A DNA stretch of 32,137 bases from Clostridiales bacterium (GTDB lineage: Bacteria > Bacillota > Sulfobacillia > CADDZV01): contig CADDZV010000014.1 of NCBI GenBank assembly GCA_902812875.1, positions 1 through 32,137 of the forward strand. Direction: 5' to 3'. A model generated the notes under the pieces. It saw only the letters and a program-made list of their open reading frames with translations. It made no database searches and had not been told where the DNA came from. The translations under genes were made by a program, and so were the position numbers. This document shows positions 5,494 through 12,475 of this stretch, piece by piece; position 1 is the first letter of the stretch, and the number at the start of each line of letters is the position of its first letter.

Positions 5494-5549
5494 GATGCAC
5501 CACCCGCCTCCCCATTTTGTGCGAAACCAATAAGACAACCCAGACAAGT

Positions 5550-5575
5550 TCATCGGCACAGACCAGGGCAAGTTA
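5550..5575 (-). promoter_or_regulatory. SigD (FliA)-like promoter for mcp-cheWACD
   Basis: Read on the minus strand, TAAC (5572-5575), a 14-base spacer and GCCGATGA (5550-5557) match the flagellar sigma consensus TAAA-N15-GCCGATAA at 3 of 4 and 7 of 8 positions. It lies about 56 bases before the TTG of mcp, the expected place and the expected class of target. A similar element precedes the XRE-fliN pair (9792-9818), which strengthens both calls. Confidence 0.6.
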
Positions 5576-5612
5576 CAGACGCCCGTGTGCCGGTGGTCGA
5601 AGGGGGATGGAC

Positions 5613-6311
5613 ATGCCCGGCGATGACATCGTCATACAACTGCAGGCTTTTCCGGCGTTTGCAGCCTTGGCCCGGCCGCACCTGGAACAACTCGCTGCCA
5701 TCGCCCGCGAGCGCAGCTACCGGCCGGATATGTTCGTACTGGTGGAAGGTGAGCCAGTCGAGGCCGTGTATTTCATCCGTAGCGGTTTCGTAAAGGCCAC
5801 CCGCACGGGTGCCGACGGCCGGGAGCAGATCGTCAGCGTGCTAGGGCCCGGCGATTTTTTCCCGCACGTGGGCTTTCTCGATGCCGGGCCGGCCCCGGGC
5901 ACGGTGCACACGCTGAGCCCCTTGGTGGTGGCGGTGCTGCACCGGGTAGATTTTGTCCGTCTTCTGCGTGAGAACGGCGAGGTCGCCCTGTCCATCATCA
6001 GCGTGCTGGAAAAACGCATCCGTCTTCTGCAGAACCAGCTGGTGGCCATGGGCATAAAAAGTGTCCCCGCACGGCTGGCGGGACTCATCCTGGAAATGGC
6101 AGCACCGGGCGCCGGCGACAAAAGCCAGCGCCCGGTGGTAAACGTACACCTCTCGCGGCAGGAACTCGCGGCCATGATCGGCACCACGCGCGAAACCGTC
6201 AGCCGCACACTGAGCGATTTCCGCCGCGCCGGCATGATCGACTTCCAGCCGGATGGCAGCATCGTGATTGTCGATGCCGCTACCCTGAAGAACTTGGCCG
6301 GGGGTCCGTGA
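5613..6311 (+). CDS. Crp/Fnr-family transcriptional regulator
   Basis: Homodimeric DNA-binding regulator with an N-terminal cyclic-nucleotide-binding-like beta barrel and a C-terminal Crp-type helix-turn-helix. The barrel shows the conserved [17 protein letters not shown] and [15 protein letters not shown] stretches. The long dimer helix is [19 protein letters not shown], and the recognition region is [20 protein letters not shown]. The protein has no cysteine, so it cannot carry an Fnr-type Fe-S cluster. A haem-based NO sensor of the DNR/NnrR kind, or a metabolite sensor, fits better. The ATG at 5613 has AGGGGG six bases upstream; the ATG at 5607 is too close to that site. The adjacent, convergent gene is NO reductase, whose upstream palindrome is a plausible binding site. 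That link is inference. Confidence 0.93.
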
Positions 6312-8598
6312 CCCCACGCAGGTGCAAGACCCCCCACCAAACCGCTGCCGCCAGCGGCACCACACCAACGGCGATGAACACCGAATCCGGTATGATCCGC
6401 AGCCACAGCAAAAGATGCACGAGCGGCCGCTGATAGAAGGCCAAGGTGCGGGCAGACCAGAAGCCGGTGGTGTACGCCTCCTGTACCTGCAGGATACCCA
6501 CCGGCAGCAAGGTAACCAGGATCATACCCAGAAGCCCGAGGTTCATGCCCCAGAAGGCGATGTTAAACCATTTTTCTTTCCAGGCCGCGGGTTCCACGAT
6601 GTTACGCAGACTGTAGAGCATGAGGGCTACACCCAGGAAGGCGTACACACCGACCATCGCGCCATGACCGTGGGCAGCCGTCAGGAAAGAGCCGTGTTCA
6701 AAGTAATTCACGGCCGGCAAGTTGATGAGAAACCCGAGCACCCCGGCCCCGAGCAGGTTCCACACACCGCTCGCGGCCAAGAAGCGGAACGAAGCGCCAT
6801 ACGGGAAATGTCCGCCGCCTTCGGTCACGGTCCGATATTGCCGGTAGGCTTCCCATACCAGAAGCGTAAGCGGCACTACCTCCAGGGCAGAAAACACAGC
6901 CCCGAGGCCAATCCAGAACTCTGGCGATCCGTTCCAGTAGTAGTGATGCCCGGTGCCAATCACGCCGCTGCCTAAAAGGATAATCAACTGGAAATAGAGC
7001 GCCCGTAGCGTCGACGCTGTTGTCACGAGCCCCAGGCTTACCATCAGGTAGCCCATTACTACCACCGCGAACACCTCGAACATGCCTTCGACCCACAGAT
7101 GGATGACCCACCACCGCCAGTAGTCGGCATAGGTGATGTTCACCGCGGGGGTGATCAGGAACGCCGCGGCGTAAAACGCGGGAATGGCTACCGCACTGTA
7201 GAACAAAAGGTGCACAAGCCCGCCACGGTCGTTTTCACGTGCAAAAGCCAGCCGGAGGGCTCTGTACATGAGGAACAGCCAGATGCCGAGCCCCACCGCC
7301 AAAAGCACCTGCCATACCCGTCCGAGCTCGAGGTATTCCCATCCTTGTTGCCCCAAAAGCCACCACAGTTTGCCGAGATATCCCTTGGTGCCAAGCCATT
7401 CGCCCGCCAGGCTGCCGCCTACCACTACGACCAGTGCCCAAAACAGGATATCCACCAGAAGCCCCTGCTTGCGCGGTTCCTGACCGCTGGCCGCTGGTGA
7501 AATGTACAGTCCGGTAGCAAGCCAGGCAGTGGCAATCCAGAAGATCGCCAGCTGCAGGTGCCAGGTACGGGCAATATTGAACGGCAAAATGCGGCCGATG
7601 TCGAACCCGTAAAAATCGCTCCCGGTGACGTAATAGTGCGACAGGAGGCCGCCCAGCAATACCTGGGCCAAAAACAGGGCCGCGACCACGGCAAAATACT
7701 TGGCGGTTTTCTTTTGGCTTGGGGTGAGCGGCACCGTTTCGACCTCCGCCACCGGGAATCGGCTTTGATCGTCGTAGGCGGGTTCCATATCCGGCCGGAA
7801 CCGGAGATAAAGGTAGTAGATGAGACCCAGCATCAGCACCAGCAAAGCCACACTCGCCGCGCTCCACCACACGCTGGCAAAGGTCATCGTATTCCCGGCC
7901 GCCGGGTCATACGGCCAGTTGTTCGTATACGAATGCGTCAGGCCAGGACGGTCAGCCGCCGACAGCCACGCAGTCCAGAAGAAAAAGTCGCTCATCTGGA
8001 CAACCTCGGACTCGTCCGCTGCCACCCATGGCGTACCGGCCGGCGGGCGCCGGTCCGGCACACTGCCCGGCTCGAGGCCCTGCTGTTCGGCGCCGGCCGC
8101 AAACCGGTCATGGTAGTAGTTACGCACCTGCGTGAGGGCGTAAACCTCTGCGGCGCTCAGGGTGAGCACCCCGGTGCTGGCGTCGTAACGGTCGGTCTTG
8201 AGGTCCTCGATCACCTGGGCGGCCACCCCGGCCTGACGCGTGGGGTCCACGCTGGTGTAAGGCTGACCGAATTGCTGCCGCGCGTAGTAATCGCGCATGG
8301 CATCGGTGACCACGTGCAGGGTGGTAGCCGTGAAATCGTCGCCGAGATAGGCACCGTCACCAAGTGTGGAGCCCCAGTCCATCAAACCGTATTGCTGGTA
8401 CACCGCCTGGCCGCCGCGGATCGTTGCGGCCGTGGCCAGCACGGCACCGTCGGGTGCACGAATCTCCTGCGGCACCGGTGCCACGCCGCGGAACACGCCA
8501 ACACCGCCCGCAACGAGCACCGTGAAGCTCAAGAGCACCGTCAGTAGAAGGGCATGCCGCCATAGGTCGCGCCTGGTGCCCTCGGTCTTGGTCGACAC
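6280..8598 (-). CDS. norZ: Quinol-dependent nitric oxide reductase (qNOR)
   Basis: Single-subunit membrane haem-copper-superfamily enzyme reducing 2 NO to N2O with electrons from quinol. The 772 residues comprise an N-terminal TM, a large extracytoplasmic cytochrome-c-like domain without haem c (about 40-215; no CxxCH), then about 12 TM helices. Haem/FeB features are ARTWHLQLAIFW, HLWVEGMFEVF with the active-site Glu, IGTGHHYYW, and HGSFLTAAHGHGAMVG with the haem-ligand His residues. Length matches the NorZ class rather than NorB. The GTG at 8598 (MSTKTEG) has AGGGG eight bases upstream; an ATG at 8661 is in frame but has no ribosome site and lies inside the inverted repeat. The 3' end overlaps the convergent Crp-family gene by 32 bases. 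Likely roles are NO detoxification or denitrification. Confidence 0.95.
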   Translation of the reverse strand: MSTKTEGTRRDLWRHALLLTVLLSFTVLVAGGVGVFRGVAPVPQEIRAPDGAVLATAATIRGGQAVYQQYGLMDWGSTLGDGAYLGDDFTATTLHVVTDAMRDYYARQQFGQPYTSVDPTRQAGVAAQVIEDLKTDRYDASTGVLTLSAAEVYALTQVRNYYHDRFAAGAEQQGLEPGSVPDRRPPAGTPWVAADESEVVQMSDFFFWTAWLSAADRPGLTHSYTNNWPYDPAAGNTMTFASVWWSAASVALLVLMLGLIYYLYLRFRPDMEPAYDDQSRFPVAEVETVPLTPSQKKTAKYFAVVAALFLAQVLLGGLLSHYYVTGSDFYGFDIGRILPFNIARTWHLQLAIFWIATAWLATGLYISPAASGQEPRKQGLLVDILFWALVVVVGGSLAGEWLGTKGYLGKLWWLLGQQGWEYLELGRVWQVLLAVGLGIWLFLMYRALRLAFARENDRGGLVHLLFYSAVAIPAFYAAAFLITPAVNITYADYWRWWVIHLWVEGMFEVFAVVVMGYLMVSLGLVTTASTLRALYFQLIILLGSGVIGTGHHYYWNGSPEFWIGLGAVFSALEVVPLTLLVWEAYRQYRTVTEGGGHFPYGASFRFLAASGVWNLLGAGVLGFLINLPAVNYFEHGSFLTAAHGHGAMVGVYAFLGVALMLYSLRNIVEPAAWKEKWFNIAFWGMNLGLLGMILVTLLPVGILQVQEAYTTGFWSARTLAFYQRPLVHLLLWLRIIPDSVFIAVGVVPLAAAVWWGVLHLRGVTDPRPSSSG

Positions 8599-8612
8599 GT
8601 GACATCCCCTGC

Positions 8613-8674
8613 CTTTGGGTTTTTCTCCGCCCAGCACAATGGGACGGTAGATCAAATTCATGAAAAACCCAAAG
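8613..8674 (-). repeat. 13-bp perfect inverted repeat upstream of norZ
   Basis: CTTTGGGTTTTTC (8613-8625) is the exact reverse complement of GAAAAACCCAAAG (8662-8674), with 36 bases between. On the norZ strand the second arm ends two bases before the AGGGG ribosome site (8606-8610). A leader hairpin here would therefore stand against the site of translation initiation. No U-run follows, so it is not a standard terminator. The loop contains a TTGATCTACC segment that recurs in the palindrome at 8710-8723. Confidence 0.7.
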
Positions 8675-8709
8675 ACGGCCGCGTGCCGTGACGAAAATCA
8701 GTAGGACAC

Positions 8710-8741: not shown

Positions 8742-9197
8742 TCAGGAGGTCTCGCTGCGGCCGAGCCCGCGGGCGCGGGCAGCCGGTGACACCAGCTTGA
8801 GTAGCCGTACGCCGAAATGGTCGCCCACCACCGTCAGCTCCCCGGTAGCCACCGGCCGGCCATTCATCGATACTTCCACCGGCGCCCCGTATGGCTCTGC
8901 GAGTTCGACTACTTGGCCAGGTTTGAGGGTCATGAGCTCCCGCAAGGGACGGCGGGCCGAACCGAGAATGACGGTAACCTCCAGGGGCAGCGAGAGCAGG
9001 CGTTCGAGCGTGCGCGAGCCCGCGATATCCGTCCCGGCCTCACTGACGCCACCGGCAGGTTGCCCTGCTGGTTGCTCTGCCCCCGGCTGCTCTCCGGCCG
9101 CGCCGGCCGCCTCCGCCGCGGCCTCGCCCTTGGCCTGGGCTTCCAGGCTTTTCAACAGGGCATCGATTTCTTCCTGGGTCAGGAATTCTTCTCCCAT
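8742..9197 (-). CDS. fliN: FliN/FliY-like flagellar motor switch protein
   Basis: Component of the flagellar C-ring or a paralogue. The N-terminus FLTQEEIDALLKSL matches the CheY-P-binding peptide of FliM and FliY. Residues about 20-58 are an Ala/Gly/Pro/Gln-rich linker. The C-terminal SpoA/FliN domain (about 62-138) contains LLSLPLEVTVILGSA, LMTLKPGQVVEL and VATGELTVVGDHFGVRL. At 151 residues it looks like FliY without the internal CheC-like phosphatase domain, or FliN with a FliM-like head. The ATG at 9197 lies inside the end of the XRE gene (19-base overlap), so translation is coupled. It is separated from any flagellar operon visible here, so it may be a second FliN paralogue. Confidence 0.9.
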   Translation of the reverse strand: MGEEFLTQEEIDALLKSLEAQAKGEAAAEAAGAAGEQPGAEQPAGQPAGGVSEAGTDIAGSRTLERLLSLPLEVTVILGSARRPLRELMTLKPGQVVELAEPYGAPVEVSMNGRPVATGELTVVGDHFGVRLLKLVSPAARARGLGRSETS

Positions 9198-9670
9198 GGG
9201 TGACCCTCGTCGCCGTTATTCGGCAAAGCTGTTCGCCGCAGCGGCGGCGGTTCCCTTTTTTCCGGGGCCGCCAGGTCGATCATGGCCGACCACGATTCCA
9301 ACACGCGCTGCTGCAGTAATGGGGGCAGCCGAGACAGCCGGTTCAAAAGGCCGATGAACTCTGGTCGGGAAACAAGACCGGCCAGTTGCCGTCCGGCCGC
9401 CGTACCCATGAACAGGACGCCGCCGCACCCGTCGTTGAGAAAATATCCCATGCTGACGCCGTAGAAATCGGCCAGGTTCAGAAGCGTTCCGAGCTTCGGC
9501 CGGCGGCGTCCGGTCTCGTAAGAGAAAAGGCTGTGGGCGGAAATCCTGCCGCCGCTCAGCTCCTCGACCTGCCGGCGGCTGAGGCCGTAAGCCCGCCGCA
9601 GGTGCAGCATGCGCTCGGCGATGACGTTTGTCCGGACATCGCTTTGTGCCAACGTTTTCTTGCCGGCCAC
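9179..9670 (-). CDS. XRE-family helix-turn-helix regulator
   Basis: Probable DNA-binding regulator of 163 residues. The Cro/cI-type HTH occupies about residues 12-75: IAERMLHLRRAYGLSRRQVE, SGGRISAHSLFSYETGRRRP and LLNLADFYGVSMGYFLND. The C-terminal 75 residues, with LPPLLQQRVLESWSAM, match no domain I recognise; the tail is charged and proline-rich. The frame extends to an ATG at 9760 without a ribosome site. The GTG at 9670 has GAAGGAGA about nine bases upstream and is preferred. A SigD-like promoter lies upstream and fliN overlaps the 3' end, so this regulator appears tied to flagellar expression. Its target is unknown. Confidence 0.85.
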   Translation of the reverse strand: MAGKKTLAQSDVRTNVIAERMLHLRRAYGLSRRQVEELSGGRISAHSLFSYETGRRRPKLGTLLNLADFYGVSMGYFLNDGCGGVLFMGTAAGRQLAGLVSRPEFIGLLNRLSRLPPLLQQRVLESWSAMIDLAAPEKREPPPLRRTALPNNGDEGHPWEKNS

Positions 9671-9791
9671 AGGCGGTTTCTCCTTCTCGGAACAGGTTTG
9701 CAAGATCTTTGACCAGGGACCGAAAAGGCACAACGCAACCGGGAAGGCGGAACCGGACATTCAGCCACGAGGGAGGGATAGGTCAGTAGAT

Positions 9792-9818
9792 GGATCGGCA
9801 AAAGGGCATGGCGAGTTA
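9792..9818 (-). promoter_or_regulatory. SigD (FliA)-like promoter for the XRE-fliN pair
   Basis: On the minus strand TAAC (9815-9818), a 15-base spacer and GCCGATCC (9792-9799) match the flagellar sigma consensus at 3 of 4 and 6 of 8 positions, with ideal spacing. It sits about 120 bases before the XRE GTG start, in the 163-base gap after the antiporter gene. The flagellar nature of fliN supports it. Confidence 0.5.
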
Positions 9819-9833
9819 ACGGCACCCCAGGAC

Positions 9834-11048
9834 TCACACCGGGGCACGCCCGCTGGCACCAGGAATTCCGGCACCTCGGAACACAAGCCGCAGGAGAACG
9901 GGCGTGGCCAGCGTGGTAACCAGCGTCATCAAGACCATGATGGTGAACACGCTCGCACCGATGACACCTGCGGCCAAGCCAATGTTGGCCACAATCAGCG
10001 CCACCTCACCGCGCGAGATCATGCCAATCCCAAACCGCCACGCCTGTAGCCACTGGAACCCGCCGATCTTTGCCCCCAGGCCCGCCCCCAGGAATTTGGT
10101 CAGGATCGCCACCACCGCGATGGTGATCCCGAAAATCCAGCCATCGCCGATCGCCCGCGCGTCAGCATCAAGCCCGACACTGATGAAAAAAACCGGCACC
10201 AGAAATCCATACGATACGGCATGAAACCGCTCCTCAAGCTGGTGCCGGTGGGACGACTGGCTGAAAAGCACCCCAGCGACGTACGAGCCCGTGATGGCCG
10301 CCACGCCACCCCAAGCTTCCGCCAACCAGGCAAAAAACAAGGCCACCACTGCGCCAAAGGCGAAAAGGCCTTCCCGCACCGGCAAGCGCAACGCCAGATG
10401 GGCGACGCGCTCGACCCCGACCCAGCCGACCAGGGCCACCGCCCCAAAAAACGCCGCCACGCGCACGAGCCCAACCCAAATCCCGGGCTCTGCCCCACTT
10501 CCTGACGGGGCCATGGCCACCACCGCTGCGAGTGCCAATAGCCCGAGCACGTCGTCGACCACGGCCGCCGCAAGGATGGCCGTTCCTTCCAGGGAGCGCA
10601 ACTGCCCGAGTTCGATGAGCGTTTGTGCCGTGATGCTGACGCTTGTGGCCGCCAGCACCACCCCGATGAACCACGATTCATAAAGCCCGTAACCAAATGT
10701 GCGGGACACCCAGTACCCGGCCAGGACCGGCAATATCACACCGCCGACGGCGCCCACCACGGCCACCAACCCCACCCGAAGCATCGCCGCCAGGTCGGTT
10801 TCCAGCCCCGCCAGGAACATGAGAAAGATCATCCCCAACTGTGCCAGGGCAGCCACCGTCTCGTGGATGGCGGGTGCGGCGAAAACCGGCCACGACTGCA
10901 GGCCGAGCACTGTCGGACCCAGAATGATCCCCATGGCCAGCTCGCCGAAAACAGCTGGCTGCCCGATGCGGGCAGCCAGACTGCCGCCAGTCTTGGACGC
11001 AGCTATGATTACCGCCAGCAAAAGAAAAAGGTCAGCCGCACCGGTCAT
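9834..11048 (-). CDS. CPA2-family cation/proton antiporter coupled to nuoN
   Basis: Integral membrane Na+/H+ or K+/H+ antiporter of 404 residues, about 12-13 TM helices. The front shows the KefB/NapA-type pattern (GQPAVFGELAMGIILGPTVLG, then MFLAGLETD). The ion-binding Asp pair is D165-D166 in AAAVVDDVLGLL, and the unwound-helix SVSIT segment precedes it. No C-terminal TrkA-N/RCK domain is present, so it is not a full KefB/KefC. The ATG at 11048 overlaps the nuoN stop as ATGA, making it the twelfth gene of the nuo operon and translationally coupled. NuoL, M and N are themselves antiporter-like, so an added exchanger could convert the Nuo proton gradient into a sodium or potassium gradient (inference). 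Confidence 0.93.
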   Translation of the reverse strand: MTGAADLFLLLAVIIAASKTGGSLAARIGQPAVFGELAMGIILGPTVLGLQSWPVFAAPAIHETVAALAQLGMIFLMFLAGLETDLAAMLRVGLVAVVGAVGGVILPVLAGYWVSRTFGYGLYESWFIGVVLAATSVSITAQTLIELGQLRSLEGTAILAAAVVDDVLGLLALAAVVAMAPSGSGAEPGIWVGLVRVAAFFGAVALVGWVGVERVAHLALRLPVREGLFAFGAVVALFFAWLAEAWGGVAAITGSYVAGVLFSQSSHRHQLEERFHAVSYGFLVPVFFISVGLDADARAIGDGWIFGITIAVVAILTKFLGAGLGAKIGGFQWLQAWRFGIGMISRGEVALIVANIGLAAGVIGASVFTIMVLMTLVTTLATPVLLRLVFRGAGIPGASGRAPV

Positions 11049-12475
11049 CGCATCAAGAGCGTTACCCCGCTGGCCGTCCAACGGAGGATGGTGTCGCTGT
11101 AAATCCCCGCCACAAGCGTTCCCACGGCCAAAAGAACCACGGCAGCACTGATCGTCCAGGCCGCGCGCACAGGCGGCACTCCCTCGGCGTCACGCAGAAA
11201 CGACACCTTGACCACGCTGTAGTAGTAGCCGACCGAGATCGCACTGTTGATTCCAAGAATGACACCAAGCCAGACCATGTGGGCATCGACCGCCGCTAAG
11301 AACAGCTGGAGCTTGGCAAAAAATCCGATCGTGGGCGGCACCCCTACGAGGCTGAGGAAAAACACCGCCATGGCCACCGCCGCCCACGGGGCCCGATAGG
11401 CGAGCCCGCGGAAGGCGTCGATCTCGGGTGCCTGACCCTGGTCCTCGACCAGGATAACCACCGCGAAGATGCCAAGGTTCATGATCGCGTACGCCGCCAG
11501 ATAGGTCAGCACAGCCGAAAGGTCACGCGGCGGCAAGGCCGCGATACCCACCAGCATGTAGCCGACGTGGGCGATGGAAGAGTACGCCAGCATACGCTTG
11601 ACGTTAGTCTGGAGGAGAGCGGTCACGTTACCAAAGGTCATGGAAATAGCCGCCAGGACAGCGATCATGAGCCGCCAACCGGCTCCCAGCGCCGGCAGGC
11701 CCAAAAACGACAGCACGAATATCCGCAGGATGGCCGCCATGGCCGCCGCTTTCGGCCCCACGGAGAAAAATGCGGTCACCGGCGTCGGTGCCCCCTGGTA
11801 AGTATCGGGGATCCACATGTGGAACGGCACCATGCCCACCTTGAGGCCAAACCCCGCCAGGAGGAAAAGCCCCGCCGTCACTACCAGCGCCGGGGGCGCC
11901 AGCTGCAACCGGCCCACGGCATCGACGATATCCGTGGTGCCGGTAAGCCCGTAAACGAGCGACATGCCGAACAATGCGATGGCCGACGCCACCGACCCGA
12001 TGAGGAAATACTTCAAGGCTGCCTCACCGGAGCGGGGTTCGTCCTGCAACATACCGGCCATGACATACGAGGAAATGGACGACAGCTCGAGCCCGAGGTA
12101 GATGACGATCAGGTTATGCGTTGACGCCATGAGCATCATGCCGAGCGTGGTGAACACGAGCAGATGGTAGAACTCGCCGATCGCCATCTTGGTGCGCCGC
12201 GCATACTCCCACGATACAAGCACTGCCATAAAGCCGACGGCCAAAAAAAGCGTGCGGAAGAATAGCGATACGCTGTCGATTGAGTACATCTGCCACAACA
12301 CCTGAGTGTTCTGGCCGACCGACGGACCAAGCCCGGCCAGCGCCGCAAGGAAGCCGATCCCCGCCACCGCCGGGACGGCTCCCTTCCGGTCCTCCGCTAA
12401 CCCGAGGTCCAAAAGGATCAGGACGATGCCGGTGATCGTGAGGATGATCTCCGGCAGGATAAGCATGTAGTCCAA
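11045..12475 (-). CDS. nuoN: NADH-quinone oxidoreductase-like subunit N
   Basis: Antiporter-like proton-channel subunit of the complex I membrane arm, 476 residues with about 14 TM helices. Family features are LGLELSSISSYVMAG carrying the conserved TM5 Glu, VPFHMWIPDTYQGAPTPVTA before the broken helix, and the Lys of SVGPKAAAM and of NVKRMLAYSSIAHVGYM. The frame opens with a TTG at 12475; the ATG at 12466 (MLILPEI) is an equal alternative. It starts a few bases after the nuoM stop and its own stop overlaps the antiporter start. Confidence 0.96.
   Translation of the reverse strand: MDYMLILPEIILTITGIVLILLDLGLAEDRKGAVPAVAGIGFLAALAGLGPSVGQNTQVLWQMYSIDSVSLFFRTLFLAVGFMAVLVSWEYARRTKMAIGEFYHLLVFTTLGMMLMASTHNLIVIYLGLELSSISSYVMAGMLQDEPRSGEAALKYFLIGSVASAIALFGMSLVYGLTGTTDIVDAVGRLQLAPPALVVTAGLFLLAGFGLKVGMVPFHMWIPDTYQGAPTPVTAFFSVGPKAAAMAAILRIFVLSFLGLPALGAGWRLMIAVLAAISMTFGNVTALLQTNVKRMLAYSSIAHVGYMLVGIAALPPRDLSAVLTYLAAYAIMNLGIFAVVILVEDQGQAPEIDAFRGLAYRAPWAAVAMAVFFLSLVGVPPTIGFFAKLQLFLAAVDAHMVWLGVILGINSAISVGYYYSVVKVSFLRDAEGVPPVRAAWTISAAVVLLAVGTLVAGIYSDTILRWTASGVTLLMR

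Follow-up and report, generated by a model that had tools for sequence, protein, structure and literature searches.

In the window analysed here, by which we mean the whole stretch of 32,137 nucleotides, a gene for a second FliN-type switch protein (FN2) carries a FliM-type CheY-P docking peptide that the FliM of the same genome lacks, and this gene overlaps that of an XRE-type regulator behind a candidate flagellar-sigma promoter (Table 1). The reading we prefer, at a probability of roughly 0.5, is that the two genes form a late-class operon, that FN2 joins the C-ring and adds the CheY-P docking missing from FliM, and that the XRE protein is a late regulator coupled to it. The flagellar sigma factor would transcribe XRE-FN2 with the late class; FN2 would assemble with FliM and the main FliN (FliN1) through its FliN domain and contribute high-affinity docking sites for CheY-P; and the motor would turn chemotaxis-competent once the late genes (flagellin, MCP, motA) come on. 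XRE, for its part, would be a late-class regulator held in fixed ratio to FN2 by translational coupling, its presence at the FN2 locus probably being a local addition.

Table 1. Features at and around the XRE-FN2 pair (window coordinates).
Feature	Position	Strand	Details or basis
XRE-family regulator	9179..9670	-	163 aa from GTG 9670; 193 aa (9179-9760) if ATG 9760
Shine-Dalgarno GAGAAGGAG of XRE gene	9680..9688	-	sequence
FN2, FliN-type second switch protein, 151 aa	8742..9197	-	PF01052 1.2e-20, residues 65-136; start ATG 9197
GAGGG ribosome-binding site of FN2, within XRE gene	9204..9208	-	sequence
FliM-type CheY-P docking peptide LTQEEIDALL, FN2 residues 6-15	9153..9182	-	motif role: available text of PMC9126983 and PMC6946799
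FliMN_C / SpoA domain of FN2	8790..9005	-	domain search
SigD/FliA-like promoter TTAAC-N15-GCCGATC	9793..9819	-	box shared with other late genes; leave-one-out matrix
CPA2 antiporter gene	9834-11081	-	overlaps end of nuoN-like gene, same strand, as if in complex I operon
Weak hairpin and T-tract between FN2 and nitric-oxide reductase gene	8665..8689	-	possible terminator; 5-bp stem, consensus match only

As read from its sequence and predicted fold, FN2 is a FliM-type docking helix joined by a flexible linker to a FliN domain. The protein begins MGEEFLTQEEIDALL, and its peptide obtains 10.5 of a possible 10.5 in our in-house peptide score. In the structural model (mean pLDDT 69.6), a helix spans residues 8-25, residues 24-60 are of low confidence, and FliN-like strands follow after residue 65. 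The FliMN_C (SpoA) domain scores 73.7 bits against the Pfam cut-off of 23.8, and the NCBIfam fliN equivalog model (TIGR02480) gives 70.4 bits, below its cut-off of 84.05, so FN2 is filed as a FliN-type paralog and not as a FliN equivalog. This C-terminal domain is common to FN2 and FliN, with solved relatives in the FliM-FliN fusion 4yxb and in FliN (1o6a, 8umd); what sets FN2 apart from FliN is that it is an additional copy, encoded outside the flagellar cluster, and that it has the FliM-type helix and a linker about 40 residues long. FliY of Bacillus and Thermotoga likewise combines an N-terminal EIDALL peptide with a C-terminal FliN domain, whereas FN2 is without the CheC-like middle domain: no CheC match was found, and the linker is modelled at low confidence and without structure. 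The third comparison is with the N-terminal CheY-P docking region of FliM, which FN2 resembles in carrying the peptide at its extreme N terminus, but here the peptide sits on a FliN paralog. The available text of two articles identifies EIDALL as the motif through which FliM and FliY dock CheY-P (PMC9126983; PMC6946799).

A seemingly full flagellar cluster lies on another contig (C11, 36,278 bases) of this genome, which is 96% complete in 88 contigs; the genes of the cluster, flhF and flhG included, were named from their open reading frames except for the families tested. Three FliMN_C domains are present in the genome, those of FliM, FliN1 and FN2; FliN1 holds the place beside fliM on C11, and FN2 lies on contig C14, outside the cluster and not next to fliM. 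The sequence-only reading had described a FliN/FliY-like motor-switch gene away from any flagellar operon in view. Its isolation is true of the window, but the full cluster exists on C11, and the window itself contains an MCP gene at a distance of about 3.6 kb; likewise the gene is FliN-type, but what it encodes is an additional FliN bearing a FliM-type docking peptide, and it is not the principal switch gene. The FliM gene begins immediately after fliL, with too little space for a peptide at the N terminus: its frame is open for only four codons further up, and no EIDALL is found there. FliN1 begins MNKDLSGEEINALL, and its peptide LSGEEINALL is degenerate and weaker than the LTQEEIDALL of FN2; since FliN1 retains this degenerate motif, docking may not be confined to FN2.

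The absence of the peptide from FliM recurs across the class. A FliM match was found in 129 of 154 class genomes, and one genome was scored for each of the 74 genera represented, a FliM peptide being counted as present at 9 or more out of 10.5 and as doubtful at 6.5-8.5. The peptide was present in 32 genera, doubtful in 6 and absent in 36; among these 36, the operon FliN or FliY has the peptide in 15 and a degenerate form (8-8.5) in 8, and in the other 13 either no motif or no FliN was found. At least three FliMN_C matches occur in 52 of the 154 class genomes by hand count. We then have 34 loci, mostly stand-alone FliNs, collected with the copy from family f37 as query and from earlier fetches, and comprising part of that query's matches: 32, this locus included, score 9.5 or more of 10.5 with LSQxEIDALL-like peptides, although one of the 32 (L195) sits in a flagellar operon; of the other two, L204 has no motif and L224 reads LSQKEIDLL, clipped by the extraction window. 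Stand-alone docking FliNs are found in 11 genera (g1, g6, g22, g32, g43, g44, g56, g64, g76, g77 and g78), and FliM is without the peptide in ten of them; because these genera are related (six belong to family f6), they are not ten independent events. The exception, g22, has a peptide on FliM and a stand-alone FliN too, which counts against the preferred reading.

The stand-alone copies with LSQxEIDALL come from several families, and their company is often chemotactic. All nine found in family f37 (L184-L192) adjoin cheX and an HD-domain gene, and seven also a flagellin-like gene, a conserved block mostly near flagellin; in the two f37 genomes surveyed, the peptide is on neither FliM nor FliY. 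Six f6 copies have cheR and cheB alongside. A separate arrangement is seen in genome G053, where a second switch set (L098) lies away from the main fliM-fliN pair, in which FliM has no motif; the set comprises genes of CheY-like and CheX-like type, another FliM, bearing LTQKDVDNLI, and a FliN-like protein bearing LTQEELDALF. In a FliN-domain tree (89 columns, weak), FN2 falls among operon FliNs (85/85) on a branch of 1.33 changes per column, away from the stand-alone copies of f6, f37 and g22, and at least two label changes are forced. By this placement, weak and with FN2 on a long branch, third FliMN_C copies elsewhere were rejected as FN2 orthologs. Placed with operon FliNs and not with the f6 and f37 stand-alone copies, FN2 probably represents a separate case in which the same solution was reached. 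There is precedent both for second FliN copies and for EIDAL motifs on FliN: full or degenerate EIDAL motifs occur sporadically in FliN and FliY, together with independent second copies, according to the available part of a 2020 mBio article, which in that part mentions neither stand-alone, chemotaxis-linked copies accompanying loss of the FliM motif nor a partner regulator (PMC6946799). According to the available text of another source, every motile bacterium has the motif in its FliM and FliY (PMC9126983). Our search of open-licence articles returned no paper on an XRE-FliN pair or a stand-alone docking FliN.

The main rival to CheY-P docking concerns the same helix, which might bind FlhG instead of, or besides, CheY-P, so that the operon would set flagellar number or C-ring assembly. 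In other bacteria, FlhG has the N terminus of FliM, or FliY, as a binding partner (available text of PMC12826062), and flhF and flhG are present in the C11 cluster. We nevertheless judge this unlikely, because the stand-alone relatives adjoin cheX, cheR/cheB or CheY-like genes, and not flhG, in the flanks seen, and because late sigma control suits chemotaxis better than an early assembly checkpoint. Late entry of FN2 into the C-ring, where it would supply CheY-P docking, remains the most likely function.

In the usual teaching, docking of CheY-P is an invariable feature of FliM. More tentatively, we suggest that in this class the CheY-P peptide may have moved off FliM, more than once, onto stand-alone FliNs made together with chemotaxis or late genes; chemotaxis input would then reside in a subunit under regulation of its own, and the amount of docking FliN could serve cells to adjust the motor's response; here that FliN would be made in fixed ratio to XRE. 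Portability of the switch's input module would be demonstrated by a lineage where roughly half the genera surveyed lack the FliM peptide and some have a separate docking FliN gene; whether C-ring composition sets chemotactic gain would then become testable. XRE would be of consequence here only if motility genes turn out to be what it targets.

That the predicted XRE-FN2 promoter is of the flagellar-sigma type is well supported, though not proven. The textbook SigD pattern (TAAA-N-GCCGAT) is found genome-wide about as often as chance predicts (14 sites, and 10 for its reversal), and by itself this generic consensus lends the promoter no support; an organism-specific form does. TAAC-N14-16-GCCGAT has eight sites in the genome against four for the reversed-pattern control, and five of the eight precede flgM, an MCP gene, XRE-FN2, motA and an EAL gene (FlgM 1.5e-18, MotA_ExbB 2.9e-31 and EAL 1.5e-49 in Pfam), the other three preceding ORFs without a Pfam family; this form was picked after a scan of the window and the flagellar contig had revealed three sites, and the motA and EAL sites are independent of that choice. 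A matrix trained without the XRE site, on those of flgM, MCP, motA, EAL and hag, gives the XRE site a score of 15.64; in the window and C11 together (68 kb, both strands), just one position scores higher. The next in rank, at 15.34, lies before fliD and was likewise outside the training set; among sites that do not precede a motility gene the top score is 13.2, and the XRE value was not attained in any of 10 shuffled strands of 32 kb. The flagellin site, TTAAG-N15-CACGATA, was included on visual inspection. The extended TTTGCCGAT is identical in the XRE, motA and EAL sites, and the genome encodes a FliA-type sigma factor (TIGR02479, 269.9 bits, above cut-off). The GCCGATA-type -10 element and the spacing of about 15 are those of SigD/FliA late promoters, but the -35 element in this genome is TTAAC and not TAAA. 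The flagellar-sigma-like promoter of the sequence-only reading thus holds up, in the TAAC form that is found, slightly altered, before flgM, motA, EAL and MCP genes.

The gene order upstream would allow another origin for the transcript. On the same strand, nuoL-M-N (named by eye) are followed by the CPA2 antiporter gene and then by XRE-FN2, beyond which comes a gene for a quinol-type nitric-oxide reductase. The antiporter gene ends about 15 bases before the promoter box, and no clear terminator was seen on that strand before the box, so the pair could be the tail of a nuo-antiporter operon that shares its neighbourhood alone, with the promoter incidental. The rank of the box in a matrix built without it, and the fact that FN2 is a motility-type protein, make this reading quite unlikely. 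Read-through from the antiporter gene into XRE-FN2 may nevertheless occur.

The regulator and FN2 overlap by 19 bases (9179-9197) on the minus strand, an XRE-type gene (PF13560/PF01381) against a FliN-like one (PF01052), just as had been reported from the letters. This overlap, with the GAGGG of FN2 inside the XRE gene, makes translational coupling, and through it proportional synthesis of the two proteins, plausible. XRE is taken as 163 aa, since GAGAAGGAG lies just 5' of GTG 9670 and the 30 codons between the alternative starts look non-coding: their codon-position GC (0.43/0.53/0.70) is dissimilar to the 0.65/0.48/0.76 used for comparison. No Shine-Dalgarno sequence precedes ATG 9760, and GTG 9670 is probably the true start. 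The helix-turn-helix (HTH) domain is found in the 193-aa frame with PF13560 at 7.4e-9 and PF01381 at 1.3e-8, passing the HTH_3/HTH_31 cut-offs (35.2 versus 23 and 36.2 versus 27 bits). AlphaFold2 models the protein at a mean pLDDT of 75, with the HTH at about 90 or more and three C-terminal helices less sure. Its closest solved HTH is that of BldD (2ewt, Foldseek E 8e-4), and SinR (3qq6) ranks lower; the HTH fold is like that of such regulators, but the C-terminal helices match nothing convincingly, and the domain search found no named binding domain there. Only the HTH matches SinR, and no antagonist gene was recognised nearby. The signature of BldD is R-x-D; BldD-like binding of c-di-GMP was considered for XRE and rejected, the protein scoring 32.3 bits against a cut-off of 250 in the BldD equivalog model (NF050110) and R-x-D being missing from its sequence.

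Within the genomes searched, which sample the surroundings of this one poorly, the pairing itself occurs just once. No XRE ortholog was found in 154 class or 398 phylum genomes (counts that include this genome), the best matches, at 38 bits, all being at HTH level. An XRE HMM built from XRE and 16 homologs, which divergent XREs may escape, found nothing in 45 loci fetched for FliN-type matches and, among the 34 loci described above, only this one, with flanks of 1.5 to 5 kb searched and genes beyond them liable to be missed. No related loci emerged when GTDB contigs were scanned with either FN2 or XRE. The nearest genomes compared share only the class, so it is at that distance that the pair was looked for. 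The XRE-FliN adjacency, proposed as a conserved feature and as a general circuit, was therefore not borne out, the pair being found nowhere else searched. XRE homologs with a similar tail (family f16) were also considered as a conserved motility link and dropped, as they adjoin a citrate-synthase-like gene (named by eye) and not motility genes.

The possible feedback circuit of the sequence-only reading could mean that FN2 and XRE act on each other; free FN2 would, for example, hold XRE until C-ring assembly consumes it, giving feedback on late genes. Such a circuit would fit the 19-base overlap, the fixed order and the shared late promoter. We consider it decidedly unlikely: the pair recurs in none of the class or phylum genomes or FliN-type loci searched, the C-terminal part of XRE is poorly modelled and without a named binding domain, and no operator-like repeat is common to the XRE promoter and other late promoters. 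One weak inverted repeat lies upstream, and, apart from one further word in the MCP region, every 8-mer shared with other late promoters belongs to the promoter box. Least probable of all is that FN2 is a decaying or redundant FliN duplicate with no function of its own, as its long branch and its occurrence in one genome might suggest, for its frame is intact with coding-like codon positions, its docking peptide is nearer to consensus than that of FliN1, and it has its own regulated promoter.

Several smaller observations concern the neighbouring genes and the late regulon. At 5517-8661 of the window, a CRP/FNR-type regulator gene adjoins that of the quinol-type nitric-oxide reductase, whose true start is probably a GTG near 8600 and not ATG 8661. 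A second flagellar-sigma-like box, TAAC-N14-GCCGATGA, lies at 5552-5575 on the minus strand, over the annotated TTG start (5571) of the MCP gene, which probably starts further down and is a member of the late regulon. At C62:7674-7698 of G000 (L091), a flagellar-sigma-like box is followed about 17 bases on by the start of an EAL gene, a c-di-GMP-type gene in the late flagellar regulon.
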